Below are positions 36,203 to 55,937 of a DNA stretch of 64,000 nucleotides, piece by piece. The translations under genes were made by a program, and so were the position numbers. Source of the stretch: Aquisalimonas lutea (lineage in GTDB: Bacteria; Pseudomonadota; Gammaproteobacteria; Nitrococcales; Aquisalimonadaceae); contig NZ_JAUFPK010000001.1 of NCBI RefSeq assembly GCF_030409225.1, forward strand, positions 1,586,733-1,650,732, given 5' to 3'. The stretch's first letter is position 1; every line of letters starts with the position of its first letter. The notes beneath the pieces are model-generated. The model was not told where the DNA came from, made no database searches, and saw nothing but the letters and a program-made list of their open reading frames with translations.

Positions 36203-36266
36203 TTCTGGTTCCCGCTGATGATTGCGTCTCTCTGGGCATTTACCGGGCTATCGGCTAGCAGTCCTG

Positions 36267-36314: not shown

Positions 36315-36327
36315 CGAGGATATTGTG

Positions 36328-39300: not shown

Positions 39301-39810
39301 GTCTGCATCGTCGTGCCCAGGCCACGGCTGGTAGTTGAAGCCCGGATCGAACCAGGTAACGTTCAGGGATGACGAACGGGTGCGCCAGTCACGCTCGACG
39401 AAACTGTCGCCGCACGTCCTTGCATTGCCGTTGCCGCTCCATTGCGTGCAATTGTTGCCGTAGACGTTGTCCGAGTTCTCGAACAGATAGATGTAGGAAT
39501 AGTTTCGGTTGTTGTAATGCGCCTCCCATCTGCCGGTGGTGATCTTGTCGTTGTCGCAATCCCAGTTGCCTGACGCGTCCGGTGCATCCGGGTCGTAGGC
39601 GCAGTAGTGCCAGTACGGCGTCATCAGCATCTCGAAATCCATGGATCCCGAATCATCGAGCTCGAAGAACACGTTTGGCGCGACCCGGTTGTTCACCGTG
39701 AGCGGTACATCGGACAGATTCAGGTCAGCGTAGGCCGGTGAGGCCACCATGGCGAACAGAACCGCTGCGGTGACCGGCTTGCGATGGCGAAAGATGGTTT
39801 CCATGAACAT
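36328..39810 (-). CDS. pilY1: Type IV pilus tip-associated adhesin PilY1
   Basis: 1160 aa. A signal peptide ends near VASPAYA|D (residue 28). A von Willebrand A-like region starts with the metal-site motif DDSGSMD (52-58) and continues to about residue 530. The C-terminal half is the PilY1 beta-propeller (YVGANDGMLHGFDADTG, LGATGHGGNSVFALDV, AGDLHGRMWKFDV, FGTGKYIEEED). An EF-hand/dockerin-like loop DVNGDGEINEED sits at 1081-1092, followed by an acidic, low-complexity tail. The protein is strongly acidic. PilY1 primes pilus assembly and mediates adhesion and surface sensing. The start at ATG 39810 follows GAGGGAAAAAG. Confidence 0.94.
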   Translation of the reverse strand: MFMETIFRHRKPVTAAVLFAMVASPAYADLNLSDVPLTVNNRVAPNVFFELDDSGSMDFEMLMTPYWHYCAYDPDAPDASGNWDCDNDKITTGRWEAHYNNRNYSYIYLFENSDNVYGNNCTQWSGNGNARTCGDSFVERDWRTRSSSLNVTWFDPGFNYQPWPGHDDADFDSARSNPAESGNERDLDGFVWYEWIDDKGYSGDRPRRGTNENMTDSANGEVDLWDTRIRHEVDGDTVRRERITSSYNGDDLETSTETLTSITGTQAETLKQNIANWYQYHRRRMFVAKNAIADVIETSPGYRYGLSVLNNDHELFVEVPEESQGDFSTHDQQLREELYAFDQPNEGTPLRQALENVGEYYDGNRSGTRDPIVEACQKNFTVLFSDGYWNQSFGGVGDEDGDGHSNTLADVAKEYYNRDLSNLPNEVPPDEFDDATHQHMNTFTVAFGVEGILEDTDDDGWPNPELDDGDDWGNPTNVGDEAPEKIDDLWHAAWNARGTYVSARTPQQVIEGLRKALGNISARTSTSSSATTNSTSLDADTKAYQARFDSGDWTGELLAYELNEDGTVGEELWEAGELIDGSDRNILSVNTSGDTVFENGIDFTEWNDLSTGQQDALNQDPNGGTDGRGEERLAYLAGDQSEEGQSAGDFRVRNSLLGDIVDSNPLFVGAQDYGYSTLADDEGGDTYFSFRNGNESRRPMLYVGANDGMLHGFDADTGQEVFSYVPGGVFDNLNQLTDQDYDHQYYVNASPNAGDAFTNSSWSTILLGATGHGGNSVFALDVTNPNDMGPDDVLWEFSHEDMGRTIGQPKLGRMENGDWVAVFGNGYNSDSHQAKLYIVNLEDPTDYQVLEPDDAGSAADPNGMAAPFIADLNGNGNIDTIYAGDLHGRMWKFDVSDDSANNPDWSVAYNQGNNNLPLFEAESASGERQPITTEPEVTLDERGDVYVLFGTGKYIEEEDTTSGADPRVETLYGVKDESGGTVDRNSLTEQTIVEQLVQSGTRYRIVSENQVASNDEGWFLDLVYDGNNLGERVIFNPQLRRGRLVVTTVIPSDNPCSVGGQSWRMDLNPFSGARLEYSVYDVNGDGEINEEDFLDGENGDATGSGQGSDNFQTPPSFTSDGDGGDVSVTSQPDGPPEAQRETGGRQPIGRQSWRELLLGY

Positions 39811-39822
39811 GTTCTTTTTCCC

Positions 39823-40365
39823 TCAGCAAGTGGGCCGAAATGTGCTCTGCAGGATCGACCGTGTGTTCTCGTTGCCACCGACGCCCAGCGCCGTTACGCG
39901 GAACGCTCTTGGAAGGCCGCCCCCGGGCGCCCCTGCTTCCGCCGAGCTGCCGGCACACCGCACTCTCGGAAGCTCTTCGATGAAGTAGTGGGGCTGCTCG
40001 CTGATGCCGTGGAGGTCGGTTCCTTGATATTCCCGGCTGTTGGCATCAGAAAAGGCCGAATCGTCTTGCCAGTCCGGTGGTCGCGTGCTCGAGCTGCTGA
40101 AATGGTAGAGGCCATCACTGCCGTCGAAGTCACCGGTCGGCGGCAGATTGTTGTCCAAGAACTCCTCTGCGTCGCGCAACGCTGCCTCGGCGGCCTGCAT
40201 CGCGACGTTCGTATCGCGCGTATTCGCTGCCATGCGTTCCTGCATGGTGGTCGACTGCATCCCTGCGACACCGATCAGCGTCAGGACCATCAGGAGAATC
40301 AGACTGACGATCAGGATGGCGCCGTCTTGGTTGCCCGTATTGGCGAGTCGGCTTCCCGTGGCCAT
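39823..40365 (-). CDS. pilX: Type IV pilus minor pilin PilX
   Basis: 180 aa. The N-terminus NQDGAILIVSLILLMVLTLIGVAGMQSTTMQERMAAN is the PilX_N signature; after the Gly there is no Glu+5, normal for PilX. NTRDTNVAMQAAEAALRDAEEFL continues the helix. A C-terminal Cys and a Cys near 136 could pair. Located between pilW and pilY1 as in other gammaproteobacteria. Confidence 0.9.
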   Translation of the reverse strand: MATGSRLANTGNQDGAILIVSLILLMVLTLIGVAGMQSTTMQERMAANTRDTNVAMQAAEAALRDAEEFLDNNLPPTGDFDGSDGLYHFSSSSTRPPDWQDDSAFSDANSREYQGTDLHGISEQPHYFIEELPRVRCAGSSAEAGAPGGGLPRAFRVTALGVGGNENTRSILQSTFRPTC

Positions 40366-40410
40366 GTGCCTACCCCAAGTGCGTAAAGATCTGTTGAGCG
40401 TTCCGCGGCG

Positions 40411-41478
40411 TCACGGCGCGCGATTCCGCAGCGTCGCGGTGGTTTCGAATACCCGATACAGACGCTGATCCGGTGCGGAAAATGTCCCCCCGTCGTAGTT
40501 GAGAGATACGGGGTCATCCGCCAGGAAATCCCGCTGGGAGTAGGTGAGGAACTCCGCGCGGGCGCTCATGACGTTTTCCCAGTCCGAGACGCTACCGGCG
40601 TCGCGGAAGGCGTTGATGCTTCTGTCGCCGTTGGTGTCGACGCCGTAGCGCAGCTGCATGTCCCGGATGCCGGGGACGAGCTCTTCAGCATCGCCGTCGG
40701 CTACCTTGCGGAAAAGCCCCGGTCCGTCGATACCGTCACCGATGAAATAGATAATGGTCTCCATGCGGTGCAGCTCGGCGCCCTGGCCGAACTGCTCCTC
40801 TTCGGGGTCGCTGCTGCCGCCCCAGCTGGACTCCGCGTTACCTGGGTCGCCGCTGGCAGAATGAACGACGTTGACTTCACTGCCGCCGCCTGTTGTCTGG
40901 AGGTTTGTTATCTGGAAAACACGCGATTTCGAGCAATCGGAGACCATCACGATGTCGTTCTGGCAAAGGCCGCTGACGCGGTCGGTGTCATCAGGACAGG
41001 CGTCATCCTCGACCCCGGTCACTTCGGCGAAAAGCTGGGCACTGTTGTTGTTTTTGGTAATTCTCACCGGGCTGCCGGCCATCCGGCGGATGATGACCAC
41101 ATCAGTCCCTTCCTCGATATCGGTATCGACGACATTCAGCCGGGAAGGAAGCGACGCGCCGACGTCGTCGAAACCTTCGATGCCTACATCGAAATCCCAG
41201 AGAGTTGAACTGCTGTTATTCAGCGTGCTGTCCACCGGCGCATCCTGCATGCAACCCGCATACCCCGCCATGCGCAGGTCGCGGGCCAGGAACGCCATGG
41301 CGAACCGGCCATTTTCTTGGATGCGTGAGGAAGCCTCCTGAACCCGATAGCTTTGCCGGCTGCTATTGAATATCTGTAGCACGCCCGCAAGGAGTATCAG
41401 GCTGATCGTGATGCCGACCATGATCTCCACCAGGCTGAAGCCTGACTGGCGGCTGCGAACGCTCTGTACCGTCGTCAT
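40411..41478 (-). CDS. pilW: Type IV pilus minor pilin PilW
   Basis: 355 aa from MTTVQSVRSRQSG|FSLVEIMVGITISLILLAGVLQIF, with a clean PilD site. RMAGYAGCMQ and GIRDMQLRYGVDTNGD are conserved PilW segments. The ATG overlaps the pilV stop (ATGA), so the frame upstream is not used. PilW forms the priming complex with PilV, PilX and PilY1. Confidence 0.92.
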   Translation of the reverse strand: MTTVQSVRSRQSGFSLVEIMVGITISLILLAGVLQIFNSSRQSYRVQEASSRIQENGRFAMAFLARDLRMAGYAGCMQDAPVDSTLNNSSSTLWDFDVGIEGFDDVGASLPSRLNVVDTDIEEGTDVVIIRRMAGSPVRITKNNNSAQLFAEVTGVEDDACPDDTDRVSGLCQNDIVMVSDCSKSRVFQITNLQTTGGGSEVNVVHSASGDPGNAESSWGGSSDPEEEQFGQGAELHRMETIIYFIGDGIDGPGLFRKVADGDAEELVPGIRDMQLRYGVDTNGDRSINAFRDAGSVSDWENVMSARAEFLTYSQRDFLADDPVSLNYDGGTFSAPDQRLYRVFETTATLRNRAP

Positions 41479-41924
41479 AGTCTCGTGTCCGTGCGGAACT
41501 GGATGGTGTTGTCGCCGCTTTCGTCCGCTACCCGCTCGTCCCACTGGATTACGATTTCCACAGTGTTATCGCTACCGAGATCGATGCCCCCCTGGCCGGC
41601 CGGCAGCACGTCGTCGAGGCGGTCTTTCCATGCTGTGAGGTCCTGGGCGGCAATGGACCCTCCGCCAGGGGCGCTATCGCCCAGCCCCGTCTCGTAGTCG
41701 CCGTTCAGCGCCGAGTCACGGTTGGCGCGCATCCGGTCGGCGATATCGTTGGCCAGCATGGTTGCCTGTGATCGGTAGTAGGCGTCCTGGTTGTTCTTCG
41801 TACCGGCCAGTTGCAGGCTGGCGAGCCCGAGCAGGCCGATGGAAAGGATGATTACGGCAATCAGTACTTCGATCAGCGAAAATCCCGACTGACCTGACTT
41901 CGTTGCGTGATTTGACAAGTCCAT
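41475..41924 (-). CDS. pilV: Type IV pilus modification/minor pilin PilV
   Basis: 149 aa from MDLSNHATKSGQSG|FSLIEVLIAVIILSIGLLGLASLQL, with Glu+5. NNQDAYYRSQATMLANDIADRMRANRD is the conserved PilV helix. An ATG at 41939 would add five residues; neither start has a convincing ribosome-binding site, so coupling to fimT is possible. The stop overlaps pilW. Confidence 0.9.
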   Translation of the reverse strand: MDLSNHATKSGQSGFSLIEVLIAVIILSIGLLGLASLQLAGTKNNQDAYYRSQATMLANDIADRMRANRDSALNGDYETGLGDSAPGGGSIAAQDLTAWKDRLDDVLPAGQGGIDLGSDNTVEIVIQWDERVADESGDNTIQFRTDTRL

Positions 41925-41946
41925 CAATGAACACCGCATGCAATAG

Positions 41947-42453
41947 TCATGGGGAGGGGCAGTTCGCGTCCCGTTCCGGGTTGCAGGAACGAACGCGGCC
42001 TGTCCTGGATATCTCGATATACCGCTCTCGGCGCGGATCGGCAGAACTACCGATGAAAATCCGGAATTGTTCGTCGCTGTTTCCGTCCAGCATTCCGGAG
42101 GGGTTGTAGACGACCTGTCCCGGTGCATTGGCAATCTCGACGGATGGTTCCGCCGGATCCTGTTGTCGGATCGTGCTGGAGTCCCCGGTATCGACCACCC
42201 GCCAGCCGCACTGCCAGTCCTGACGGCCCTGGCTACAGCTGGCGGTGCGAGTTGTCAGGCTCACAGGGCGTCCCCGGCTAAGCGCCTCGCTCCGTGCCGC
42301 GCTGAGGCCCACGATCAGGTCGTTGGTCGCCGTCGAGATGCGACTGCTGTCGATGGTCGACCGAAAGCTCGGCACGGCAACCGTTGCGACAATCACCGCG
42401 AGAGCGATCGTGATCATGAGCTCGATCAGTGTGAAAGCGCGTTCTTTTTGCAT
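41947..42453 (-). CDS. fimT: FimT/FimU-type minor pseudopilin (Ala at -1)
   Basis: 168 aa, first gene of the minor-pilin operon. Leader MQKERA|FTLIELMITIALAVIVATVAVP with Glu+5. The residue before the cleavage point is Ala, whereas every other pilin of the operon with a standard leader has Gly. DLIVGLSAARSEALSRGRPVSL and the GWRVV and GRVRSCNPE segments match the GspH/FimT family. SD AAGAG precedes the ATG closely. Divergent from the universal stress gene. Confidence 0.88.
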   Translation of the reverse strand: MQKERAFTLIELMITIALAVIVATVAVPSFRSTIDSSRISTATNDLIVGLSAARSEALSRGRPVSLTTRTASCSQGRQDWQCGWRVVDTGDSSTIRQQDPAEPSVEIANAPGQVVYNPSGMLDGNSDEQFRIFIGSSADPRRERYIEISRTGRVRSCNPERDANCPSP

Positions 42454-43587: not shown

Positions 43588-44760
43588 CTAGAAGATGTTC
43601 GAGCGCTCGTACTGCACCGGCCAGGTCACGTTCTCCGCCCTGAGCGCGGCCGCGGAGCGCAACGGCCAGACCGGGTCGGCGAGCAGGGCGCGCCCCAGGA
43701 CCACCAGGTCCGCCTGGCCGTTGGCGACCACCGACTCGGCCAGGTCGGCGCCGTGGATCAGCCCCACGGCGGCGGTGGGCATGCCCGTGGCCTCGCGGAT
43801 GCGCTGCGCGAACGGCACCTGGTAGCCGGGGTGGATGGGGATCTGCTGGCGCGGGTCATTGCCGCCGGAGGAGCAGTCCACCAGGTCCACCTCGCCGCGC
43901 TCGCGCAGGATGCCCACCAGCCGGATGGACTGCTCCAGGTCCCAGCCGCCGTCCACCCAGTCGCTGACCGACAGCCGCAGGAACAGCGGCAGCTCGGCGG
44001 GCCATTCCCGCCGCACCGCTTCCAGGGACTCCAGCAGGAAGCGGATGCGGTTGTCGAAGCTGCCGCCGTAGTCGTCCGTGCGCTCGTTGCTCAGCGGCGA
44101 GAGGAACTGGTGCAGCAGGTAGCCGTGGGCGGCATGCAGCTCCAGCAGCTTGAAGCCCGCCTCCCGGGCACGCCGCACGGACGCCTGCAGCGTATCCAGC
44201 TCGGCGGCGATATCATCGCCGGACAGCGGCGTCGGCACGGGCCAGCCGGCGGCGTAGGGCTTGTCCGAGGCGGAGACCACCTCCCAGCCGCCCTCGGCCA
44301 CGGGAATGGGCTGCGTGCCCTCCCACGGGCGGCCCACGGAGGCCTTGCGCCCGGCATGGCCGAGCTGGATCGCCGGCACCGCGCCCTGCGCCTCGACAAA
44401 GCCGGCGATACGCGCCAGCCGGTCGCGCTGCTCGTCGTTCCACAGGCCCAGGCAGTAGTGGGTGATGCGCCCGCGCGGCTCCACGTGGACCGCCTCCGTG
44501 GACACGATGCCGGCACCGCCCACCGCGCGGGCGCCCAGGTGGACAAGGTGCCAGTCGTTGGTCAGCCCGTCCTGCCCGGAGTACTGGCACATGGGCGAGA
44601 GCATGATGCGGTTGCGGCTGGTCACCGAGCGGAAGCTCGTCGGCCGGAACAGGTGCGGGTGCGGGTCGCGCTTGAGGATGCGGCGGGCGTTCTCGCCGCT
44701 GGTGCGCGAGTCGGCGACGTCCTGCCGGCTGCTGCTGTCGTTGCGCTCGGAATCGCTCAT
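43588..44760 (-). CDS. NADH:flavin oxidoreductase / old yellow enzyme, YqjM type
   Basis: 390 aa from MSDSERNDSS. FMN-dependent TIM barrel reducing activated C=C (or nitro) bonds. YqjM-subfamily landmarks are the flavin-tuning Cys58 in MLSPMCQYS, IQLGHAGRKAS, the substrate pair in ELHAAHGYLLHQFLSP, and NERTDDYGGSFDNRIRF. About 30 Ser/Asp/Arg-rich residues precede the barrel. It is the last gene of the LysR-linked catabolic operon and overlaps the membrane-protein gene (ATGA). Confidence 0.92.
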   Translation of the reverse strand: MSDSERNDSSSRQDVADSRTSGENARRILKRDPHPHLFRPTSFRSVTSRNRIMLSPMCQYSGQDGLTNDWHLVHLGARAVGGAGIVSTEAVHVEPRGRITHYCLGLWNDEQRDRLARIAGFVEAQGAVPAIQLGHAGRKASVGRPWEGTQPIPVAEGGWEVVSASDKPYAAGWPVPTPLSGDDIAAELDTLQASVRRAREAGFKLLELHAAHGYLLHQFLSPLSNERTDDYGGSFDNRIRFLLESLEAVRREWPAELPLFLRLSVSDWVDGGWDLEQSIRLVGILRERGEVDLVDCSSGGNDPRQQIPIHPGYQVPFAQRIREATGMPTAAVGLIHGADLAESVVANGQADLVVLGRALLADPVWPLRSAAALRAENVTWPVQYERSNIF

Positions 44761-45557
44761 GACTGATGCCCTCGGGTAGCGTGCATGCGTTGGTGCAGGT
44801 GGATCAGCGCGAACATGGCGGCGCTGAGGCCCAGGGATGCGGCCAGCGCCGCGAAGAACGCACCCAGCCCGCCCAGGGTCTCGGCGGTGAGGCCGGCGGT
44901 GGCGGCGAAGGCGATGAGGCTGAACATGCCGCGCTGGGCCGTGGCGATGGTGGCCCGCGCGGTGGCCACGCCGAAGCGCTGCTGGAGGGTCAGGGCGATG
45001 GTGATGAAGCCCACGGGAAAGCCGGTGAGCGTGCCGGACACCAGCGGCCCGAAGCCGGTGGCCACCGTGGTGGCCACCCCGACCAGCACGCCGGCGAGCA
45101 CGCCCCGGAAGATCAGGTCCGGCCAGCGGTTGGGCGCCGCGGCCCGGGTCGGCGGCAGGCGCAGGTAGCGGTCCAGCCCCATGGCCAGCCCGAAGACCCC
45201 CGCGTAGACCAGCAGCGCGGTCCCCACGCCGCCCGGAATGCGGCTGAACACCAGCGCGCTGGCCATCCAGCCGAGAATGGACAGGAGAATGCTGCTGATG
45301 GCCCCCAGCCGCGCGGCCGCCAGCACATAGCACATGGTGAACACCAGGGTGGCGGTGAGCGCGTGCAGCGCCGATACCGCCGCCTCGGCGACGAACGCCG
45401 GCGACTGCTCCCGGCCCAGGAAGAAGAACGCCGGCGCGAGCACGATGGGCGTGCCCGCGATGATGCCGCCGAGGCGCGGCCCCAGGTGGCCCACGCTGAG
45501 CGTGACGCCGATGACGACCACCGCGGTGGCCAGCATCTTGACGGCGATCGCCTCCAT
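44757..45557 (-). CDS. Membrane protein with an internal duplication, unknown function
   Basis: 266 aa, about eight hydrophobic segments. I do not recognise the family. The two halves resemble each other: GHLGPRLGGIIAGTPIVLAPAFFFLG (about 23-48) aligns with TGFGPLVSGTLTGFPVGFITIAL (about 165-190), and each is followed by an Ala-rich helix (FVAEAAVSALHALTATLVF versus VATARATIATAQRGMFSLIAF). This suggests an ancient inverted or tandem repeat, as in small transporters. It overlaps the amidase stop and the OYE start (TGATG and ATGA), so it is fixed in this operon and may export or import a pathway compound. Confidence 0.8.
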   Translation of the reverse strand: MEAIAVKMLATAVVVIGVTLSVGHLGPRLGGIIAGTPIVLAPAFFFLGREQSPAFVAEAAVSALHALTATLVFTMCYVLAAARLGAISSILLSILGWMASALVFSRIPGGVGTALLVYAGVFGLAMGLDRYLRLPPTRAAAPNRWPDLIFRGVLAGVLVGVATTVATGFGPLVSGTLTGFPVGFITIALTLQQRFGVATARATIATAQRGMFSLIAFAATAGLTAETLGGLGAFFAALAASLGLSAAMFALIHLHQRMHATRGHQS

Positions 45558-46906
45558 CAGGCTCCGCTGCCCGCTACCAGCGCCTCCACGCCCGCGGCCC
45601 GCCGCAGCAGCTCCCGGTCGCCGTTGCGCGGCCCGAGCAGCATGCAGCCCACGGGCAGGGCGCCGGGCTCATGGCAGGGCAGGGAGATGCCGCACAGGTC
45701 CAGCAGGTTGCCAACCGTGGGGTTGCGCAGCGCCAGCAGGTTCAGCCGGGCGTAGTCCTCGTCCCGCTCCAGCTCGCTGAGCAGCGGCGGCACGATGGGC
45801 ACCGTGGGCATGACCAGGGCGTCGTAGTCGGCCAGCAGCGTGTCGACGCGCGCCATCATGCGCTGGCGGCGCTGCAGGAGTTCCAGGTAGTCGGCGGCGG
45901 TCATTCCTGCGCCACGCTCCATGCGGCTGCGCACCCGGGGGTCGTAGTCGTCGCCCCGGGTCTCGAGCCAGCCGCGGTGGACATGGTAGGACTCGGCGGC
46001 GGTGAACCCCCCGCCCTCCAGGAGGTCCGGGATGTCCCCCAGGACGGCGGCCTCGACGTCCTCCACCACGGCACCGGCATCCCGGAGCCGCCGCAGGGCG
46101 CGGTCGAATGCCGCCGCGACGTGCTCGTCCATGTCGTCCCGGACGTAGGTGGTGGGCACCGCCAGCCGCAGCCCGTGCACCGGGCGCGGTGTCAGCGGGG
46201 CCGACGGGCCGGCGCTCATGACCGCATCGAGCCGGGCGCAGCAGTCCACCGTGGGCGCGATGGGCCCCACGGTATCCAGGGTGGTGGACAGCGGGAACAC
46301 CCCGTCCCGCGGCACGCGCTTCTGGGTCGGCTTGAATCCCACCAGCCCGCAGAACGCCGCCGGGATGCGTACCGAGCCGCCGGTGTCGGTACCGATGCCG
46401 GCGGCGGCCATGCCCCGGGCGACGGCCACGGCCGAGCCGGACGACGACCCGCCGGGAATGCGGCCGGGGGCCAGGGGATTGTCCGGCGTGCCGAAGTGCG
46501 GGTTCAGGCCCACGCCCGAATAGGCGAACTCGGTCATGTTGGTGTGCCCGGTCAGCACCGCGCCCGCCTTGCGCAGGCGCTGCACCGCCGCGGCGTCGGC
46601 GGACGCCGGCGGGGCGTCGCGGAGCAGCCGGGAGCCGGCGTGGGTGATCGCCCCGGCGACATCGAACAGGGCCTTCAGCGCCACCGGCAGGCCCGCCAGG
46701 GGCGGCCGCGGGGCGCCGGCGGCGCGCAGGCCGTCCACGGTGTGTGCCTGGGCCCGGGCCGTGGTAGGGAACAGCGCCGTGTACACGGAGCCGTCATCCG
46801 CGGCACCGATGCGTTCCAGGGCGCTCCCCAGCAGCGCTTCCGCCGTGGTCTCGCCGTTGTCCAGGCGGGCGAGGGTGGTGCCGAGGGAGGGCGGTGATGC
46901 GTTCAT
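45557..46906 (-). CDS. Amidase-signature hydrolase
   Basis: 449 aa. The Ser-cisSer-Lys triad is visible: Lys78 (GLPVALKALFD), Ser154 (PGGSSSGSA) and Ser178 (TDTGGSVRIPA), with the expected 24-residue spacing between the serines. It resembles AtzF/allophanate-hydrolase-type and other small-amide amidases, but the C-terminus is short and gives no substrate clue. It lies ten bases after the DUF2848 gene and is coupled to the membrane protein. Confidence 0.92.
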   Translation of the reverse strand: MNASPPSLGTTLARLDNGETTAEALLGSALERIGAADDGSVYTALFPTTARAQAHTVDGLRAAGAPRPPLAGLPVALKALFDVAGAITHAGSRLLRDAPPASADAAAVQRLRKAGAVLTGHTNMTEFAYSGVGLNPHFGTPDNPLAPGRIPGGSSSGSAVAVARGMAAAGIGTDTGGSVRIPAAFCGLVGFKPTQKRVPRDGVFPLSTTLDTVGPIAPTVDCCARLDAVMSAGPSAPLTPRPVHGLRLAVPTTYVRDDMDEHVAAAFDRALRRLRDAGAVVEDVEAAVLGDIPDLLEGGGFTAAESYHVHRGWLETRGDDYDPRVRSRMERGAGMTAADYLELLQRRQRMMARVDTLLADYDALVMPTVPIVPPLLSELERDEDYARLNLLALRNPTVGNLLDLCGISLPCHEPGALPVGCMLLGPRNGDRELLRRAAGVEALVAGSGA

Positions 46907-46916
46907 GGAGGTCCTC

Positions 46917-47591
46917 TCAGGCCACGATGGGCAGGGTCTCGATGCGGTAGCCGTGCTCGATGCGCCGCTCCCGGACCGGGTCGACCAGCGCCATGTCGAA
47001 CCGCTCCGCCGGGCGCACGCCGCCGCTCACCGGCAGCGTTCCGCAGAGCATGGCCTGGCCGGGCGCCAGCGCGCCGTCGCTGCGGCCCAGGCGCTGGAGC
47101 AGGTCCCCCGGGGGCAGCAGACCGGCCACGGAGCCTTCCTGGTAGGCCTCGCGCCTGCCGTCGATGGTAGCCCAGGAGGCCAGGCGCAGCTCGTCCCAGT
47201 GGTCGAGGGCGTCGGCGAGCCGCCACAGCTGCGGCGCCACGGGCTTGGGGCAGACCTGCTTGGAGTGGGCCACCGACCACGCCTCGGCGTCGCGGTCCGT
47301 GTGATCGGACGCCACGCCGAGCATGGTTCCCCGGTCGGTGCCCAGCAGGAATACCTCGACCTCGCCGCTGCTGGCCTCGCCCAGGACCTGGACGTCCTCG
47401 TCGGTGGTCAGCCGGTCGGCGCTGACGCGGTAGAACAGCGGCGTCGCCGACGGCGGCGTCACGCCCAGCGCCTGCAGCTCGTCGATGTGCTCCCGGATGG
47501 CAGCGGCGTCGCGGCCGGCCCACCCGGCCACGATGAGCTCGTTCACGGTCACCGTGATGCGGTCACCGGAGTCCAGTACGAAATCCGTCAT
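46917..47591 (-). CDS. DUF2848 family protein
   Basis: 224 aa from MTDFVLDSGD; a start four codons upstream (47603) is possible. Resembles the DUF2848 family, recognisable by VASDHTDRDAEAW, HSKQVCPKPVAP and the GSVAGLL/GQAMLCGTL segments. These proteins may be fumarylacetoacetate-hydrolase-like (HxD and CGT features), and they often sit beside TRAP transporters and amidases. No biochemical role is established as far as I know. It lies between the TRAP large permease and the amidase. Confidence 0.8.
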   Translation of the reverse strand: MTDFVLDSGDRITVTVNELIVAGWAGRDAAAIREHIDELQALGVTPPSATPLFYRVSADRLTTDEDVQVLGEASSGEVEVFLLGTDRGTMLGVASDHTDRDAEAWSVAHSKQVCPKPVAPQLWRLADALDHWDELRLASWATIDGRREAYQEGSVAGLLPPGDLLQRLGRSDGALAPGQAMLCGTLPVSGGVRPAERFDMALVDPVRERRIEHGYRIETLPIVA

Positions 47592-47622
47592 TGCATACTC
47601 CACGAATCGTTGTCGGTCCCCG

Positions 47623-48906
47623 TCAGTGCAGGACGGAGGGCAGGAACAGGGCCAGCTCCGGCAGCGCCACCAGGATCATCGCCATGAGCAGCATGATCAG
47701 CACGTAGGGCACGGCGCCGGCCATGACCTCGTTGAGCGAGCCCCGGCCGCGCACGCCCTGGACGACGTACAGGTTGAGCCCCACCGGCGGCGTGATCAGG
47801 GCCATCTCCACCAGCAGGATCAGCAGGACGCCGAACCACACCGGATCGAACCCGAGGCCGATGATTACCGGGGCCACGATGGGGATGGTGATCACCATCA
47901 GCGACAGCGTCTCCACGAAGAAGCCCAGCACCAGGTAGAGGGCGATCACCAGGAACAGCGTGCCGTAGGCCCCCAGTCCGGCGGCGTCCAGGAAGGCGCT
48001 GAGCTCGCGCGTCACCCCTGCCGAGGCCAGAACGAAGTTGAGGAAGTACGACGCGGTGATGATCAGCATGATCATGCCGGTGGTGCGCATGGTGCCGTCG
48101 ATGGCGTCGATGACCACCCGCAGCGTAAGCTGCCGCAGGCCGGCGGCGATGAGCAGGGCGCCGAGCACGCCCACCGACGCCGCCTCCGTGGGCGTCGCCA
48201 GGCCCGCGTAGATGGAGCCCACCACCACGACGAACAGCGCCAGCACCGGGATCAGGCTGGTCAGCCCCGAGATCCGCCGCTGCCAGCCGTGGTGCCGGCT
48301 GGGGCCGCCGAGCGCCGGGAAGCCCCAGCACAGCAGGGCCGTGCCGACGATGAACAGCAGCGCCAGCAACAGCCCCGGCACCAGGCCGGCGGCGAACAGC
48401 CGGGGAATGGATGTCTCGGTGAGAAAGCCGTAGACGATCAGGTTGATCGACGGCGGGATCATGATCCCCAGGGTGCCGCCGGCGGCGATGGAGCCGGCGA
48501 ACAGGCGGTCGTCGTAGCCCAGGGTGCGCGCCTGGGGCATGGCCACGGTGCCCACCGTGGCCGCCGTGGCCACGCTGGAGCCGGAGGTCGCCGAGAACAG
48601 CGTGGCGGTGCCGATGTTGGCGTGCAGCAGCCCGCCCGGGAGCCAGGACAGCCACGCCTCCAGGGCCTCGTAGGTGCGCCGCGCCACGCCGGTGCGCATG
48701 AGGATCTCGCCGAGCAGGATGAACAACGGGATGGCGATGAGCAGGAAGCTGTCCGAGGCCGACCAGAGCACGTCGCCCAGGGCGCGATGCAGCGGGAAGC
48801 GGGAGTAGAACTCGTCCAGGAACAGCGCCAGGGCGATGAGCGCCGCCGCCACCGGAATGCTCAGCGCCAGCAGGACCAGCAGAACCAGCAGAGCGACCCC
48901 GATCAT
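47623..48906 (-). CDS. dctM: TRAP transporter large permease subunit (second operon)
   Basis: 427 aa from MIGVALLVLLVLL. About 12 membrane segments. IPLFILLGEILMRTG, ATSGSSVATAATVGTVAMP, GTLGIMIPPSINLIVYG and TPPVGLNLYVVQGV are DctM motifs. The start overlaps the dctQ stop (ATGA). It is clearly divergent from the permease at 10.4 kb, so it probably carries a different substrate. Confidence 0.93.
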   Translation of the reverse strand: MIGVALLVLLVLLALSIPVAAALIALALFLDEFYSRFPLHRALGDVLWSASDSFLLIAIPLFILLGEILMRTGVARRTYEALEAWLSWLPGGLLHANIGTATLFSATSGSSVATAATVGTVAMPQARTLGYDDRLFAGSIAAGGTLGIMIPPSINLIVYGFLTETSIPRLFAAGLVPGLLLALLFIVGTALLCWGFPALGGPSRHHGWQRRISGLTSLIPVLALFVVVVGSIYAGLATPTEAASVGVLGALLIAAGLRQLTLRVVIDAIDGTMRTTGMIMLIITASYFLNFVLASAGVTRELSAFLDAAGLGAYGTLFLVIALYLVLGFFVETLSLMVITIPIVAPVIIGLGFDPVWFGVLLILLVEMALITPPVGLNLYVVQGVRGRGSLNEVMAGAVPYVLIMLLMAMILVALPELALFLPSVLH

Positions 48907-49499
48907 TGGTCCTCCTCCCCGGTCGGCGCGGCGGTCTGCTCCTCCAGGGTGGCGCTGCCCGCCACGCGCTGGACGGAGCGCGGATCCGCCGCGACAAGCG
49001 CCACGATCACGCGCAGCAGCAGCACGGTCACTGCGGCGGCGAACCAGGCCAGCCCGACCGCCCACAGCCCCTGGGGGATCCATAGCGGCGTGGCCAGCGG
49101 GGTGTTGGCCCGGGAGCCGCCGGCGAACGATGACCAGGCCACGTCCGCGGCGGCGCCGACCACCAGGACGCAGAACAGGCCCAGGGTCGCCAGGGCAACG
49201 GCGTCCAGCACCGCCCGGACGGTGAGCGGCATCTGCATGTAGACCACGTCGATGCGGATATGGGCCTTGCGGAACAGGGAGTACGCGAACGCCCAGCTGG
49301 CGCTGATGGCGAGAACGTAGCCGCTCAGCTCGGTGGCGGCCGCGGTGGAGCGGCCCAGGAGCTGGCGCGAGAGGATCTCCACGATCACCAGGGCGACCGT
49401 CGCCAGGATCAGCACCCCGCCGGCGCGGGCCAGCCAGTGGGAGCCGGTGTCCATGTAGGCCAGCAGGCGATCGAGGAATGCGGCCGTTCGATCAAGCAT
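48903..49499 (-). CDS. dctQ: TRAP transporter small permease subunit (second operon)
   Basis: 198 aa from MLDRTAAFLDRLL; the open frame upstream is GC-rich noise. Four membrane segments, with LFRKAHIRIDVVY as the conserved DctQ loop. The long loop between segments 3 and 4 (AGGSRANTPLATPLWIPQGL) is typical of longer DctQ proteins. A 14-bp hairpin separates it from dctP. Confidence 0.9.
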   Translation of the reverse strand: MLDRTAAFLDRLLAYMDTGSHWLARAGGVLILATVALVIVEILSRQLLGRSTAAATELSGYVLAISASWAFAYSLFRKAHIRIDVVYMQMPLTVRAVLDAVALATLGLFCVLVVGAAADVAWSSFAGGSRANTPLATPLWIPQGLWAVGLAWFAAAVTVLLLRVIVALVAADPRSVQRVAGSATLEEQTAAPTGEEDQ

Positions 49500-49545
49500 G
49501 GGAGGACCCTTGCTGTCGGAGGAATGGCCCGTAGGCATACGGCAA

Positions 49546-49578
49546 CCGGCCGTACCGCGCACCCCGCGGTACGGCCGG
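49546..49578 (-). promoter_or_regulatory. Perfect intercistronic stem-loop between dctP and dctQ (second operon)
   Basis: A perfect 14-bp inverted repeat (CCGGCCGTACCGCG and its complement) with a 5-base loop, 13 bases past the dctP stop; no U-tract. Same position as the hairpin in the hydroxybutyrate TRAP operon. Confidence 0.7.
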
Positions 49579-49591
49579 ACTCGGCGCGGCG

Positions 49592-50656
49592 CTAGTTCGC
49601 CTCGGCGGTGACGCCGGTCACCTCGCCGATGGTGTCGTTCCAGCGCTCGACCCACTCGCTGTCGACACGGCTGGCCCAAGCAGGCAGGACCTCGGCCTCC
49701 AGCCGCTGCCGGGCGTACTCGAAGTCCTCCTGCGTGGCCTCGACGTGGACCATGTCGCCGGGCTCACCCCGGGTGCACTCGCCGTCACCGGTCAGGCAGG
49801 CGATGCCTTCCTCGGTTTCCGGCACGGCGTTCTCCCAGACCGGATCCTCGTAGTTGGTCGCGATCTCGTCGAGCAGCCACTGCTGCGTGGTCTCGTCCAG
49901 GGAGTCCCACTTGTCGCCGTTCATGGCGGTGACCACGTGGTCCCAGCCGCCCACGGGCAGCGGATACAGATGGGTGGAGACCTCATGCCAGCCCGAGCTG
50001 TAGCCGGACAGCGAGCCGGTCACCGCGCAGTCCACGACGCCCCGGTCCAGGGCGCCCGGGACCTCGCTGAAGTCCAGGGTCACGCCCTCGGCGCCCAGTG
50101 CCTCCAGGAACTCGGCGGTGGTACGGCCGCTGGCGCGGATGGACTTGCCTTCCAGGTCCTGCAGGCCGCTGATCTCGGCGTTGCAGAACACCATCTGCGA
50201 CGGGTAGGGCACCACGGCCAGCAGCTTGGCGCCGTCGAAGCGCTCCGCCATGATGTCCTCCAGCACGGGCCGGTAGGCCTCCGCGACTTCCCGGGCCTCC
50301 TCGACGGTGGGCGCGATCATGGGGATGTCCAGCCCGCCCAGCTCGGGCGCGTCCTGGACGGTGTAGTCGGCCACCGTGGAGCCGACGTCGAACACGCCGC
50401 GGCCGAGCAGGCTGAAGACCTCGCCGCCGCCCAGGCCCATCTGGTCGAAGGTGGAGACTTCGGTGCTGATCCGGCCGTCGGAGGCCTCCGGCACGTGCTC
50501 GCCCCAGAAGGGCTTCTCGAAGTTCTGGAACAGCGACAGGCTGCTCCAGCTGCCCACGTAGGCGATCTCGGTGCTCTGCAGATCCTGGGCCTGGGCTGCA
50601 CCCGTGGCGACGATGACACCCATGCAGGCGACGCTTAGCAGACGGTTTGTTGTCAT
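49592..50656 (-). CDS. dctP: TRAP transporter substrate-binding protein (second operon)
   Basis: 354 aa from MTTNRLLSVACMG; signal peptide to about AQA|Q (residue 23). DctP-type: FDQMGLGGGEVFSLLGRGVFDVGS, LEGKSIRASGRTTAEFLEALGAEGV (ligand Arg region), VPGALDRGVVDCAVTGSLSG. Two cysteines (ACLTGDGEC) form a possible disulfide near the C-terminus. Acidic. It defines the imported compound, which I cannot infer beyond an organic anion. Confidence 0.92.
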   Translation of the reverse strand: MTTNRLLSVACMGVIVATGAAQAQDLQSTEIAYVGSWSSLSLFQNFEKPFWGEHVPEASDGRISTEVSTFDQMGLGGGEVFSLLGRGVFDVGSTVADYTVQDAPELGGLDIPMIAPTVEEAREVAEAYRPVLEDIMAERFDGAKLLAVVPYPSQMVFCNAEISGLQDLEGKSIRASGRTTAEFLEALGAEGVTLDFSEVPGALDRGVVDCAVTGSLSGYSSGWHEVSTHLYPLPVGGWDHVVTAMNGDKWDSLDETTQQWLLDEIATNYEDPVWENAVPETEEGIACLTGDGECTRGEPGDMVHVEATQEDFEYARQRLEAEVLPAWASRVDSEWVERWNDTIGEVTGVTAEAN

Positions 50657-50732
50657 GGTTTCGGTCCTCCGGCGAATGCGCGGGTTCAAGGGTCGGTCCT
50701 TACGTCGATGTGCCACTCCAGTGCGACACGTG

Positions 50733-51542
50733 CTAGAGCAGAGCAAGCTGCGAGTCGCGCCAGTCCGTGAGCAGCATGTGGCCCGGGCTGTGGGTGATGG
50801 CGAACGCCACCCCGGAGCGCTCCAGCGCGCGCTGGGGCGTGACGCCGCAGGCCCAGAATACCGGCAGTTCGTCGTCGTCCACGGTCACCGGATCGCCGTA
50901 GTCCGGCGCGTCCAGGCTGTCGATGCCGAGGGCGGCTGGGTCGCCCAGGTGCAGCGGCGCGCCGTGGGCAAGCGGATAGCGCGTGGTGATCTGCACGGCG
51001 CGTATGGCGTCGGCCGGGCGCAGCGGTCGCATGGACATGACCATGGCGCCGCCGAACGGCCCGGCGGGGACCAGCGGCACGGTGGTGTCGTACATGGCCA
51101 CGTTGCGCTGCTGCTCGACGTGGCGCAGGCGGATGCCGTCGGCCATGAGCGCATGCTCGAAGGTGAAGGAGCAGCCCAGGGCGAAAGCCACCAGGTTGTC
51201 CCGCCACAGATCGACGATGTCCGTGACCTCGTCCGTGCAGTGCCCTTCCCGGAAGACCCGGTAGCGGGGGATGTCGCAGGCGATGTCCAGGTCCTCGCCG
51301 AGGACGGGAAGGCGCCGGTCGCCGGGCTCGCCGACGGCCAGGACCGGGCAGGGGCGCGGATTCGCCTGGCAGAACCGCAGGAAGGCGCCGGCATCCGCCT
51401 CCGGCAGGAGCACCAGGTTCGCCTGCACGAACCCCTGCGCCAGGCCCGCCGTCGGTCCCGTCCATGCCCCGCTGCGTGCCGCGCGCCGTACGGCGGCACC
51501 GTCGAGCAGATCGTGACTTGCTGCGCTCTCGCCCATGGTCAT
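50733..51542 (-). CDS. UPF0317/DUF1445 family protein (putative hydro-lyase)
   Basis: 269 aa from ATG 51542 ([11 protein letters not shown]); ATG 51536 is two codons inside, and an upstream ATG at 51593 lacks a ribosome-binding site. Signatures are [84 protein letters not shown] and [16 protein letters not shown]. The family (Pfam PF07286) is annotated as hydro-lyase or D-glutamate cyclase-related; activity here is unknown. First structural gene after lysR. Confidence 0.88.
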
Positions 51543-51666
51543 CCCGATCCCGGTCTCTGTTACATACAGGTTTAGGCGAGATGACTGATTCATTCAAATT
51601 GTGATTATTGATTGAAGCTGATAGGTATTTCCGATTGATCATCCCGTCGACAGCCCGGGCGGGCCT
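51543..51666 (-). promoter_or_regulatory. AT-rich control region upstream of the catabolic operon
   Basis: The 124 bases between lysR and the DUF1445 gene are sharply AT-rich (51585-51645). They contain TTCAA-N14-TTGAA (51593-51616) and related TCAAT/ATTGA repeats, compatible with a LysR-type binding site. Only a weak promoter (TTGAAT-N17-TAAACC) is visible. A regulated promoter here would separate the operon from lysR itself. Confidence 0.45.
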
Positions 51667-52548
51667 TTACGGGTGCTCCGAGGCCACGCGGACGGCCAGA
51701 TCGGCCACTGCCCGGGTGATGGTATCCCCGGGGGAGATGGCATAGGAGACGGTGAACCGCAGCTCCGGCAGCACCCCTTCGGCCTCGAAGGTGCGCAGGC
51801 TCCCGGACGCCAGCTCGTTGCCGATGATGCGCGGGGGCAGGGGGCTGATGCCGATGCCGTCCACGGTCATGCGGATGATGGTGGCCAGGGAGGAGCTGGC
51901 ATGGATGCGCAGCCCCGGGCTGGTGCCGCGCACGAGCTGCTGGACCGCGATGTGCGGCTTGCTCAGGCGCGGGTAGGTGATGATGGGCCACCGGGTCAGG
52001 GCGTCCAGGTGCACGGGTTCCGGCGGCAGCGGCAGGCGCGGGCTGGCGACCCACGACAGCGGGTAGCGGCACAGCTCGGCGTTGACGATGTCCGGGTGGT
52101 TCACCGGCCCCATGAGAAAGGCGATATCGATGTCGTGGCCGGTGAGCTTGTCGGTGAGATTGAGCGAGCTGTCCACGTCCAGCTCCAGGGTGACGCCGGG
52201 GTAGGCTTCGTTGAGCCGCTCCAGCAGGTGCGGCAGCCAGGTGTAGACGATGGTCTCCACCACGCCCAGGCGGATGGTGCCCTGCATCGCGTGCGGATCG
52301 GCCACCGTGTGCAGCAGCTCGGAGCGCATCTCCAGCAGCCGCTCGGCGTACTCCAGCGTGTCCCGGCCCTTGGCGGTGAGCGCGACCCGCCGGCCGGCGC
52401 GCTCGAACAGCCGCACGCCCAGCTCCTCCTCGAGGTTGCTGATGCGGGCGGATACCGAGGGCTGCGAGGTGTAGAGATGCTTCGCCGCGGCGCGGAAGCT
52501 GCCCAGGCGGGCGATCCACACCAGCGTTTCCAGGGAGCGGAAGTCCAT
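51667..52548 (-). CDS. LysR-family transcriptional regulator
   Basis: 293 aa. N-terminal winged helix (LGSFRAAAKHLYTSQPSVSARISNLEEELGVRLFER) and a C-terminal two-lobe effector domain (~90-290). It is encoded immediately upstream of and in the same direction as the DUF1445/TRAP operon, and back to back with the cytosine deaminase gene, so it is the likely regulator of one or both. Confidence 0.92.
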   Translation of the reverse strand: MDFRSLETLVWIARLGSFRAAAKHLYTSQPSVSARISNLEEELGVRLFERAGRRVALTAKGRDTLEYAERLLEMRSELLHTVADPHAMQGTIRLGVVETIVYTWLPHLLERLNEAYPGVTLELDVDSSLNLTDKLTGHDIDIAFLMGPVNHPDIVNAELCRYPLSWVASPRLPLPPEPVHLDALTRWPIITYPRLSKPHIAVQQLVRGTSPGLRIHASSSLATIIRMTVDGIGISPLPPRIIGNELASGSLRTFEAEGVLPELRFTVSYAISPGDTITRAVADLAVRVASEHP

Positions 52549-52593
52549 GCGATGTCCTGACCTCGGTTGTACCGGGCAGCCAGGCTAGCGCCT

Positions 52594-52614
52594 GCGGTGG
52601 CGAACCGCCACCGC
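52594..52614. promoter_or_regulatory. Inverted repeat in the lysR / cytosine deaminase divergent region
   Basis: GCGGTGGCG-AAC-CGCCACCGC, perfect 9-bp arms. It may be an operator or a hairpin. The -10-like TATACT for the deaminase gene is at 52694-52699, without a convincing -35. Confidence 0.35.
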
Positions 52615-52727
52615 CGTCGGACGTCGGCGCGGCCGCGGGAGCCGGGCCCGCCGGGTGCGGCTCCGTTCGCTGCGGCGCGGTGCCGCCGCAGGATATACTC
52701 GGGCGGGTACCGGCACGAGGAGGCCCC

Positions 52728-53192
52728 ATGGACGCATTCATGCAGGCGGCACTGGACGAGGCGCAGCGCGGCCTCGACGAAGGCGGCATACCCATCGGCT
52801 CCGTGCTCGTCCACCGAGGCCGGATCATCGGCCGGGGGCACAACCGCCGCCAGCAGCGCGGGAGCGTGGTGCTCCACGGCGAAATGGACGCCCTGGAGAA
52901 CGCCGGCCGGCTGCCGGCCGGCGTCTATCGCCAGAGCGTGCTCTACACGACGCTGTCGCCGTGCGCCATGTGCAGCGGTGCGATCCTCCTGTACGGCATC
53001 CCGCGCGTGGTGGTCGGCGAGAACACCACCTTCCGCGGCGAGGAGGCGTTGCTGCGCAGCCGGGGCGTCACGGTGGATGTGCTCGATGTGGCCGAGTGCG
53101 TCCGAATGATGCGCACCTTCATCGAGCGATCCCCCGCCGTGTGGAACGAGGACATCGGGGTCCCGGGTAGCCCGGGCGCGGGCACCGGCTGA
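52728..53192 (+). CDS. Yeast-type cytosine deaminase (zinc-dependent)
   Basis: 154 aa from MDAFMQAALDEA, after GAGGAGGCCCC. Zinc site His50-x-Glu52 (HGEMD) and Cys79/Cys82 (PCAMC). It follows fungal FCY1 along almost its whole length: GGIPIG, GRGHN, RGSVVLHGEMDALENAGRL, LYTTLSPCAMCSGAILLYGIPRVVVGENTTF and ERSPAVWNEDIG all have direct counterparts, including the C-terminal WxEDIG gate. It is therefore likely to deaminate cytosine or a similar heterocycle rather than tRNA or guanine. Divergent from the LysR gene. Confidence 0.88.
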   Translation: MDAFMQAALDEAQRGLDEGGIPIGSVLVHRGRIIGRGHNRRQQRGSVVLHGEMDALENAGRLPAGVYRQSVLYTTLSPCAMCSGAILLYGIPRVVVGENTTFRGEEALLRSRGVTVDVLDVAECVRMMRTFIERSPAVWNEDIGVPGSPGAGTG

Positions 53193-54141: not shown

Positions 54142-54171
54142 TGTTTGACGGTTTGCTTACAGGAGGTCCCC

Positions 54172-54828
54172 GTGACGGAGCGGCAACTGACCGGGCTGGC
54201 GACGGACGTGGTGGTGTTCACCATCTCGGAGCACCGCCTGCGGGTTCTGCTGGTCAGCCGCAGCCGGGATCCGTATGCGGGCTGCTGGTCGCTGCCCGGG
54301 GGCATGGTGCCCATCGACGAGGGGCTGGAGGAGTGCGCCAGCCGCATGCTCCGGGAGAAGACCGGCGTGCACGGCGTCTACCTGGAGCAGCTCTACAGCT
54401 TCGGCGAGCCGGAGCGGGACCCGCGCGGCCGGGTGGTGTCGGTGTCGTACTACGCGCTGGTACCGCCGGGCCGGCTGCAGGGGGTCGCGCTCAACGGCGA
54501 CACCCTGGGGTGGTGGCCGGTGGACCAGCTGCCGGAGCTGGCATTCGATCACGACGCCATCGTGCGCATGGCGCACCAACGTCTCGCGGCCAAGCTGGAG
54601 TACTCGACCATCGCCCTGCAGTTCATGGGTGAGCGGTTCACGCTGAGCGAGCTGCAGTCGGTCTACGAGACCATTCTCGGCGAGCCGCTGGACAAGCGGA
54701 ATTTCCGCAAGCGGGTGCGGAACCTGCCCTGTATCGAGGATACCGGGGAACGGTTCCGCGCCGGCAAGCACCGGCCGGCGCGCCTGTTCCGGGTCACCCG
54801 GCCGCACCGGGTGGAGATCATCAAGTAG
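54172..54828 (+). CDS. nrtR: NrtR, Nudix-related transcriptional regulator of NAD synthesis
   Basis: 218 aa from GTG 54172, which follows ACAGGAGGTCCCC. An N-terminal Nudix fold (~1-140) has a degenerate box: GGMVPIDE...RMLREKTG instead of RExxEExG. So it is probably non-hydrolytic and senses ADP-ribose-type ligands. A C-terminal winged helix follows (~145-215: [27 protein letters not shown]), the hallmark of NrtR. nadA lies immediately downstream, supporting the role. Confidence 0.92.
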
Positions 54829-54857
54829 CAGCGGCCTGCGGGCCGGAGGTGATGAGC

Positions 54858-55937
54858 ATGAGCAAGGTAGAGGCGGTCCGTGCCGAGGCCCCGGTGCAGT
54901 TCTTCCGGGAGCAGCCGTTCACGGCCAGCGAGACGCTGGACGCCGGTGAGCGCGAGCAGCTCATGGACCGCATCCGCAACCAGCTGCGGGCGCAGGACGC
55001 GGTCCTCGTGGCGCACTACTACACCGCGCCGGACCTGCAGATCCTGGCCGACGAGACCGGGGGCATCGTCTCCGACTCCCTGGAGATGGCCCGCTTCGGC
55101 TACGAGCACCCGGGCAGCACGGTGGTCGTGGCGGGGGTGCGGTTCATGGGCGAGACGGCCAAGATCCTCAGCCCCGAGAAGCGCGTCCTCATGCCGGAGC
55201 TCGAGGCCACCTGCTCCCTGGACGAGGGCTGCCCGCCGGATGAGTTCGCGGCGTTCTGCGACGAGCATCCGGACCGCACCGTGGTGGTCTACGCCAACAC
55301 CAGCGCCGCGGTGAAGGCGCGGGCGGACTGGGTGGTGACCTCCAGCATTGCGCTGGATGTGGTGCGCCACCTCCACGAGCGCGGCGAGAAGATCCTCTGG
55401 GCACCGGACAAGCACCTGGGCGCCTACGTCCAGCAGCAGACCGGCGCCGACATGCTGCTCTGGGACGGCGCCTGCATCGTCCACGAGGAGTTCAAGGCCA
55501 TCGAGCTGGACAAGCTGCGGGCGCAGCACCCGGAGGCGAAGGTGCTGGTGCACCCGGAATCGCCCGCCGGGGTCATCGCCCAGGCGGACGTGGTGGGCTC
55601 CACCTCGCAGCTGCTCAAGGCGGTGCAGACGCTCGACGCGGACACCTTCGTGGTGGCCACGGATGCGGGCCTGTTCCACAAGATGCACGAGGCGGCCCCG
55701 GGCAAGACCCTGCTCAAGGCGCCCACGGCGGGCCGCAGTGCCACCTGCACCAGCTGCGCGCACTGCCCGTGGATGGCCATGAACGGCCTGCGCAGCCTAG
55801 CCCATGCCCTGGATGCGGGGGCCAACGAGATCCACGTCGATCCCGGCGTGGCCGAGCAGGCTCTGGTGTCCCTGGGCCGCATGCTCGAGTTCGGGCGCAA
55901 CCGCAGCCGGGCCGTCGAGGGCGCCGGCGACGCCTGA
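54858..55937 (+). CDS. nadA: Quinolinate synthase A
   Basis: 359 aa from ATG 54858, eight bases after GGAGG; ATG 54852 and GTG 54849 are too close to the ribosome-binding site. NadA condenses iminoaspartate with DHAP to quinolinate using a [4Fe-4S] cluster. Ligand cysteines are around 119 (EATCSL), 206 (DGACIVH) and 297-303 ([10 protein letters not shown]). [11 protein letters not shown] and HPESP are conserved. Co-transcribed with nrtR and ended by an intrinsic terminator. Confidence 0.96.

Follow-up and report, generated by a model that had tools for sequence, protein, structure and literature searches.

A recurrent DUF1445, TRAP transporter, DUF2848 and amidase gene cluster of Aquisalimonas lutea, probably for acids of the 5-oxoproline class

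The stretch of Aquisalimonas lutea DNA analyzed here (64,000 nucleotides of contig NZ_JAUFPK010000001.1, called the window below) carries a LysR-type regulator gene followed by eight genes on the same (-) strand, which encode a DUF1445 protein, the three parts (DctP, DctQ and DctM) of a tripartite ATP-independent periplasmic (TRAP) transporter, a DUF2848 protein, an amidase, a membrane protein with two similar halves and an old yellow enzyme (OYE) family ene-reductase; a deaminase gene lies on the (+) strand beyond lysR. Which compound might such a set of genes import and degrade? On balance we favor an operon, under LysR control, for a five-membered-ring lactam acid of the 5-oxoproline (pyroglutamate) class. 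This judgement concerns the class of substrate, and the particular chemistry proposed below for DUF2848 and the amidase is, taken by itself, distinctly doubtful. Comparison of gene neighborhoods shows that the operon recurs, and that both its DUF1445 gene and the clade of its DctP go together in many genomes with PxpABC or OplAH, the two kinds of 5-oxoprolinase. Few studies have looked at how bacteria use 5-oxoproline (PMC13274462), and the proposal yields a short, directly testable list of ligands.

Recurrence of the gene cluster

An open reading frame (ORF) and family check of the window found all of these genes in the places and, except for the membrane protein, the families given in a preliminary description of this DNA, and the sequence and start lists bear out both that gene set and its three gene overlaps, dctQ/dctM (ATGA, 4 nt), amidase/membrane protein (TGATG, 1 nt) and membrane protein/OYE (ATGA, 4 nt). 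The regulator gene (51667..52548, (-); Pfam LysR_substrate, E = 2e-37, and HTH_1, E = 6e-23) is the first of the cluster, and a LysR gene stands ahead of the cluster in most relatives. These were gathered by a DUF2848 alignment search of genome_contigs, from which the best 80 of at least 556 confirmed relatives were taken; they are the nearest ones and not an even sample. Neighboring genes were labeled by their best BLAST hits to window proteins and annotated plasmid-cluster proteins at a query cover of at least 40% (45% for loci L023–L108; loci are numbered with L and genomes with G), so that some genes may have been missed; L181, for instance, has no labeled membrane protein and L030 no labeled amidase.

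Of these 80 loci, 60 have the amidase gene on the strand of DUF2848 and 2 have it on the other strand. The 24 of them that also hold DUF1445 all have TRAP genes (24/24), and 13 have a 5-oxoprolinase gene, 11 the membrane protein and 5 a same-strand OYE. Among 37 loci holding both DUFs, the order DUF1445-DctP-DctQ-DctM-DUF2848 is found in 30 and DctM-DUF2848-amidase in 26, and six (L038, L039, L041, L123, L184 and L185) contain all nine genes. The core is kept in 13 of the 13 nearest loci (L029–L041, Marinobacter and Halomonas kin), ten of which continue into pxp genes, and annotated plasmids of Thioclava and Paracoccus carry lysR through amidase in the window's order. Genome G304, of the same family as A. 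lutea, has all nine genes, and G312, of the same order, has eight, without OYE. An even draw of 299 genomes over the phylum holds DUF2848 in 21 and DUF1445 in 43; DUF1445 is present in 19 of these 21 DUF2848 genomes, where 3.0 would be expected (counted by genus, in 12 of 14, with 2.6 expected), relatedness not being removed from these figures and being ignored likewise in statistical tests on the locus counts. By its gene neighborhoods, the cluster is a real, recurrent bacterial gene cluster, and the possibility, raised in the preliminary description, that these genes are linked only in this genome fails because the comparison of neighborhoods finds the linkage across many genera. DUF1445 is absent from the four other genomes of the genus that were searched (one of them only 82% complete), and the island is therefore patchy within the genus, which suggests horizontal gain or loss.

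DUF1445, 5-oxoprolinase genes and the transporter

The DUF1445 gene (50733..51593, (-)) belongs to Pfam family PF07286, D-Glu_cyclase (E = 2e-61), and scores 389 bits against the NCBIfam model PRK05463 "putative hydro-lyase" (cut-off 324); its solved relatives, 3db9 and 2pif, are both named only UPF0317. In relatives, the cluster is often continued by pxp genes, for the ATP-dependent 5-oxoprolinase, or a gene for the fused OplAH is present. From the even draw, 42 stretches around DUF1445 (44 places less that of the window and one of the two in G043) can be compared with 13 around DUF2848 without a nearby DUF1445. Genes for 5-oxoprolinase (Pxp or OplAH) occur in 23 of the former and 0 of the latter, and TRAP genes in 18 and 0, respectively; an amidase gene is present in 13/13 of the DUF2848-only stretches.

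Six of seven annotated plasmid loci with DUF1445 also show a 5-oxoprolinase gene. The gene run is DUF1445-solute-binding protein-PxpB-PxpC, then PxpA, on an Azospirillum plasmid, LysR-DUF1445-TRAP-OplAH-DUF2848 on a Sulfitobacter plasmid, DUF1445-PxpA-DUF4392 on a Pseudoalteromonas plasmid and LysR-DUF1445-DctP-DctQ-DctM-DctP-oxoprolinase on an Acidovorax plasmid; PxpA lies ∼6 kb from DUF1445 on an Agrobacterium plasmid, and for a Rhizobium plasmid, whose incomplete annotation table lists no oxoprolinase, a scan gave an OplAH-like ORF in the stretch (L115). The DUF1445 locus of a Terrarubrum plasmid shows no 5-oxoprolinase. These neighborhoods show that DUF1445 travels with both kinds of 5-oxoprolinase, PxpABC and OplAH, and this linkage in relatives makes a 5-oxoproline-type lactam acid the most likely substrate. 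Oxoproline was among the candidate ligands of the preliminary description, and it is the one that the comparative evidence favors. The even draw over the phylum thereby connects one domain of the mammalian D-glutamate cyclase with the 5-oxoprolinase genes of bacteria.

PF07286 has matches in Bacillus subtilis, where YcsI is presumably the DUF1445 member. Known 5-oxoprolinase systems include the Bacillus ycs/pxp operon, with pxpABC and an uptake gene (PMC10448178), and Corynebacterium pxpTABC, again 5-oxoprolinase genes with an uptake gene (PMC13274462). The A. lutea cluster is like them in that a DUF1445 gene or a dedicated importer is clustered with lactam-opening enzymes, but it differs in its TRAP import and in its DUF2848, amidase, membrane protein and OYE genes, and it lies in a genome without PxpA and PxpC.

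The dctP (49592..50656; Pfam DctP, E = 9e-19; the ATG at 50656 was picked as the start by inspection), dctQ (48903..49538, its start, from the start list, being uncertain; Pfam DctQ, E = 3e-16) and dctM genes (47623..48906; Pfam, E = 1e-86; TIGR00786, 327 bits, cut-off 268.45), all on the (-) strand, lie in one operon and together make up a TRAP transporter. Its binding protein has 7nr2 as its best match and is distant from 2pfz (E = 2e-13). The first DctP of the Acidovorax cluster matches 2pfz at E = 9e-94, 6wgm at 1e-82 and 2pfy at 2e-72; we take 2pfz and 2pfy to be Bordetella DctP7 and DctP6. A tree of 57 DctP proteins (fragments of <250 aa were left out) has two deep groups, with the Acidovorax proteins in one and the window's DctP in the other, and on this topology direct kinship of the latter with the proven 5-oxoproline binders was rejected. 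DctP6 and DctP7 structures have been solved with 5-oxoproline, for which DctP7 has a dissociation constant of 0.3 µM, and the Bordetella dctP6/dctP7 TRAP system for this compound lies near a eukaryotic-type 5-oxoprolinase (PMC13274462). The main text of that report names no hydro-lyase, DUF or amidase. The A. lutea cluster shares TRAP import with the Bordetella system, and the Acidovorax cluster that has such a DctP also has a DUF1445 60% identical to that of the window; the differences are the separate deep clade of the window's DctP and the lack of an oxoprolinase gene in its cluster. Within the window's own DctP clade, the transporter genes are followed directly by those for PxpABC (L187) or OplAH (L186), with no DUF2848. 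These two loci are the best evidence, although indirect, that transporters of the window's type may also carry a 5-oxoproline-like acid.

Because a 5-oxoprolinase gene in the cluster and a DctP6/DctP7-type binding protein are both missing, we do not file the cluster as a 5-oxoproline operon. It is probably a 5-oxoproline-type catabolic island that is related to such operons, has a similar substrate and includes an undescribed branch of a fumarylacetoacetate hydrolase (FAH)-fold protein and an amidase. The description as a plain C4-dicarboxylate TRAP operon was set aside as too general, the partner genes often being oxoprolinases.

Predicted fold of DUF2848 and the genes that follow it

The AlphaFold model of the DUF2848 protein (gene at 46917..47591, (-); Pfam, E = 5e-79) has a mean predicted local distance difference test score (pLDDT) of 95.0. 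In a Foldseek search its best match is to an FAH-type enzyme (E = 1.6e-10), and among the 50 matches listed the template modeling scores are 0.53–0.67 over the query. Most of these are named as FAH family members, fumarylpyruvate hydrolase, FAHD1 or HpcE, one (3rr6) is uncharacterized, and we take the remainder to belong to the FAH superfamily. The predicted fold, the E-x-E...D pattern, R103 and G187-T188 (numbered from window:46917-47600) are features that DUF2848 has in common with this superfamily (fumarylpyruvate hydrolase, FAHD1, 2-keto-3-deoxy-D-arabinonate dehydratase), but sequence similarity is barely detectable: a sequence-profile search finds FAH chains only at E = 0.7–1.8, no better than an amylase (0.86), there is no FAH-family Pfam hit on DUF2848, and hhalign against 17 FAH domains gives E = 1.3e-4 with a program probability of 53.7%. 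In this last alignment E80 and E82 fall on the E-x-E of the FAH domains, D99 on their aspartate column (glutamate in the first FAH row) and R103 on their arginine column, and these four residues, together with H38 and E41, are invariant in 49 DUF2848 sequences. The hhalign alignment does not extend to H38-x-x-E41, whose likeness in spacing to the H-x-x-E pair of FAH enzymes was judged by eye only. In FAH enzymes, the E-x-E and D residues are metal ligands. DUF2848 thus has, according to its model, an FAH fold in which the metal-ligand pattern is kept, and it is a predicted metalloenzyme; since FAH enzymes act on 2-oxo acids, its substrate is expected to bear a 2-oxo acid group. For a family so far without a name, this supplies a predicted fold, probable residues of the active site and a setting in a pathway. 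Where the preliminary description had DUF1445 and DUF2848 as unassigned lyase or hydrolase steps, the latter can now be given a predicted FAH fold and the former described as a frequent companion of 5-oxoprolinase genes. In the paper collection searched, DUF2848 is not mentioned and no described pathway that contains all of the parts was found; the papers there that mention DUF1445 include, judged by titles and abstracts, nothing about a pathway.

The next gene (45557..46906, (-)) encodes an amidase-signature amidase (Pfam, E = 8e-94) of the PRK07056 subfamily (NCBIfam, 599 bits, cut-off 447), in which a Lys78-Ser154-Ser178 triad was assigned by eye from the family motif. The membrane protein gene (44757..45557, (-)) belongs to no Pfam family. 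The two halves of its product align with a BLAST E value of 1.2e-5, which is optimistic because filters and composition correction were off, and the half-to-half local score is 63 compared with a shuffled mean of 38.2 (sd 7.1; highest of 500 shuffles, 69); an internal duplication is likely, not certain. The protein is weakly GlpM/PRK09272-like: PRK09272.1-3 matches it at E = 2e-4 and 21 bits, far below the cut-off of 101, and GlpM matches in 3 of 16 members of the family with a best E value of 0.04. A fold search with its model (pLDDT 80.7) gave nothing matching at E = 0.001. The last gene (43588..44760, (-)) encodes an OYE-family ene-reductase (Pfam Oxidored_FMN, E = 7e-61) that is NamA/YqjM-like, its score with the NamA model, 329.5 bits, being below the cut-off of 431. 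The membrane protein and OYE genes could be passengers behind a functional unit that ends at the amidase gene, an arrangement compatible with any of the substrates considered here. Of the 13 nearest loci, 9 lack OYE and 2 the membrane protein, and the Thioclava and Paracoccus clusters stop at the amidase gene. However, start-stop overlaps join the amidase, membrane protein and OYE genes, their order is repeated in six other loci, and OYE lies beside DUF1445 in Bosea (L048), a distant lineage, so that passenger status seems rather unlikely to us.

We infer the following roles for DUF2848, the amidase, the membrane protein and OYE, within a route in which the TRAP transporter would import the lactam acid and a 5-oxoprolinase, here possibly a fused OplAH encoded at a distance from the cluster, would turn its 5-oxoproline form into glutamate. 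DUF1445 might handle another ring form, such as the D-isomer or one that is hydrated. A further hydrolytic branch, made up of DUF2848 as a metal-dependent FAH-fold enzyme and the amidase, would release ammonia from a 2-oxo acid amide in its open-chain form. A candidate for this amide is 2-oxoglutaramate, suggested (as a proposal and not a result) because the pairing of a 2-oxo-acid enzyme with an amide hydrolase suits it; it exists mainly as the ring 2-hydroxy-5-oxoproline, the thermodynamically favored form (PMC9806585), which as a lactam acid is close to 5-oxoproline. OYE would reduce an unsaturated ring form, and the two-domain membrane protein may be an auxiliary transporter or exporter. 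Two enzymes of the cluster may act on the ring by an undescribed route.

Alternative substrates and neighboring genes

Several findings weigh against a substrate of the 5-oxoproline class. The window's cluster contains no 5-oxoprolinase gene, PxpA and PxpC were not found in its genome (PxpB was not searched), its DctP falls outside the DctP6/DctP7 type for which 5-oxoproline binding is proven, and 5-oxoproline has no C=C bond for OYE and needs no amidase. The genome does encode a fused OplAH-type protein (1204 aa), ∼0.4 Mb from the cluster and ahead of a flavin reductase. Of the OplAH proteins in the fetched loci, ten, nine of which belong to DUF1445 loci, are 55–60% identical to it and an eleventh is 34% identical. 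The family is, however, present in all 20 of the 20 genomes of the order that were searched, A. lutea included; the host OplAH is therefore permissive and not specific evidence, its gene appears to be common to the order at large and need not belong to the operon, and its value as proof of a complete pathway is weakened. PxpA is encoded in 11 of 14 genomes chosen for carrying DUF1445, and a fused OplAH in the remaining three (G000, G304 and G247); given the background in the order, this is weak support. Elsewhere, 19 of the 42 DUF1445 stretches (four of the 42 are much shortened, by the end of a contig or by the bounds set for the stretch) show no nearby 5-oxoprolinase, and five of the 37 loci with both DUFs (L043, which is an 11 kb contig, L088, L164, L191 and L193) lack both a same-strand amidase and a 5-oxoprolinase. 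No same-strand amidase is labeled in ten of the 37 (these five and L030, L042, L050, L079 and L118), which counts against the proposed DUF2848/amidase chemistry; the stretches of L118 and L043 are short, and L118 (Sulfitobacter) stops inside DUF2848. Genome G139 (L164) has the run dehydrogenase-DUF1445-DUF2848-major facilitator superfamily transporter-CoA transferase III (5568–10786, (-)) with no TRAP or amidase labeled, and therefore the DUF1445-DUF2848 pair can serve another acid.

The cluster as a whole might likewise be devoted to another N-heterocyclic or amide acid (an imide, or a hydantoin-type, hydroxylated pyrrole or pyridine acid), the 5-oxoprolinase genes of its relatives belonging to an adjoining, separate pathway. 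The 56 of the 80 DUF2848 loci that lack DUF1445 point in this direction, with a same-strand amidase in 42, an HpaB-type flavin monooxygenase in 21, TRAP genes in 2, a 5-oxoprolinase in 2, and the membrane protein and OYE in 0. An unsaturated amide would also fit OYE and the amidase better than 5-oxoproline does, and such a substrate would agree with the genome's lack of PxpA and PxpC. On the other hand, DUF1445 tracks 5-oxoprolinase genes even in loci without DUF2848, and transporters of the window's DctP clade directly precede PxpABC or OplAH (L187 and L186); we consider a different acid unlikely.

The HpaB-type clusters (Burkholderiales, Bradyrhizobium) have the DUF2848-amidase pair in common with the window, and the one amidase checked among them, that of L027, is also of the PRK07056 subfamily, but they have branched-chain-type ATP-binding cassette (ABC) import and an oxygenase where the window has TRAP and DUF1445. 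They are found in L027, L028 and 21 of L029–L108 and comprise monooxygenase, flavin reductase, cupin, amidase, branched-chain-type ABC and DUF2848 genes, with variable gene content. In Bradyrhizobium and Tardiphaga (part of L074–L107), amidase-DUF2848 is followed by two genes of 2-oxoglutarate-Fe(II) oxygenase type, one of the Oxygenase-NA family. The literature offered nothing useful on a pyrrole-2-carboxylate pathway as the context of HpaB clusters (PMC6165268 gave a reference-list entry only). An improbable but more specific scheme would unite the two kinds of cluster through an ATP-independent, two-step module for hydrated or oxidized compounds of 5-oxoproline chemistry, in which DUF2848 opens 2-hydroxy-5-oxoproline or hydrates a dehydro form and the amidase, as an omega-amidase, yields 2-oxoglutarate and ammonia; DUF1445 and OYE of the TRAP clusters would join this pool to 5-oxoproline by dehydration and then reduction, and in HpaB clusters the module would complete the breakdown of a hydroxylated pyrrole-type acid.

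Salvage of D-glutamate or 5-oxo-D-proline, with DUF1445 interconverting D-glutamate and its lactam and the other proteins performing later steps, appears very unlikely. Mammalian D-glutamate cyclase consists of DUF1445 and DUF4392 (PMC5339696), and separate genes for the two flank 5-oxoprolinase genes in L177 (6.1–9.3 kb), L178 (6.6–9.2 kb) and the Pseudoalteromonas plasmid (L119). However, that report describes racemase homology for the DUF4392 part and is not known to have tested DUF1445 alone, and DUF4392 is labeled in just 2 of the 42 sampled DUF1445 loci. A DUF4392 search found no match in the genome of A. lutea and none in any control genome.

Pyrimidine or cytosine degradation was rejected because the deaminase gene (52680–53192, (+)) has no regular linkage to the cluster in relatives. 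Its product is a yeast-type cytosine deaminase (best match 1uaq, E = 4e-44); the yeast type is unusual beside the CodA type known from bacteria. No ORF of the 86 loci L023–L108 has this deaminase as its best label, and the 55 loci L157–L211 contain one 43% hit (L157), ∼6.7 kb from DUF1445. From these neighborhoods it looks like a chance neighbor, and its inclusion in the system by the preliminary description is not retained; the description's central idea, a set of catabolic genes that probably serves to take up a small N-heterocyclic acid and open its ring, is supported.

Farther along the (+) strand, a NUDIX protein gene with an NrtR winged-helix domain (54145–54828) lies directly before the NadA gene (54849–55937) and probably encodes an NAD regulator beside its target. 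On the other side of the cluster, positions 36001–42000 have a G+C content of ∼0.61, compared with 0.66–0.70 on either side, and a GspH/N-methylation pilin-type protein is encoded at the edge of this low-G+C stretch (41947–42453).

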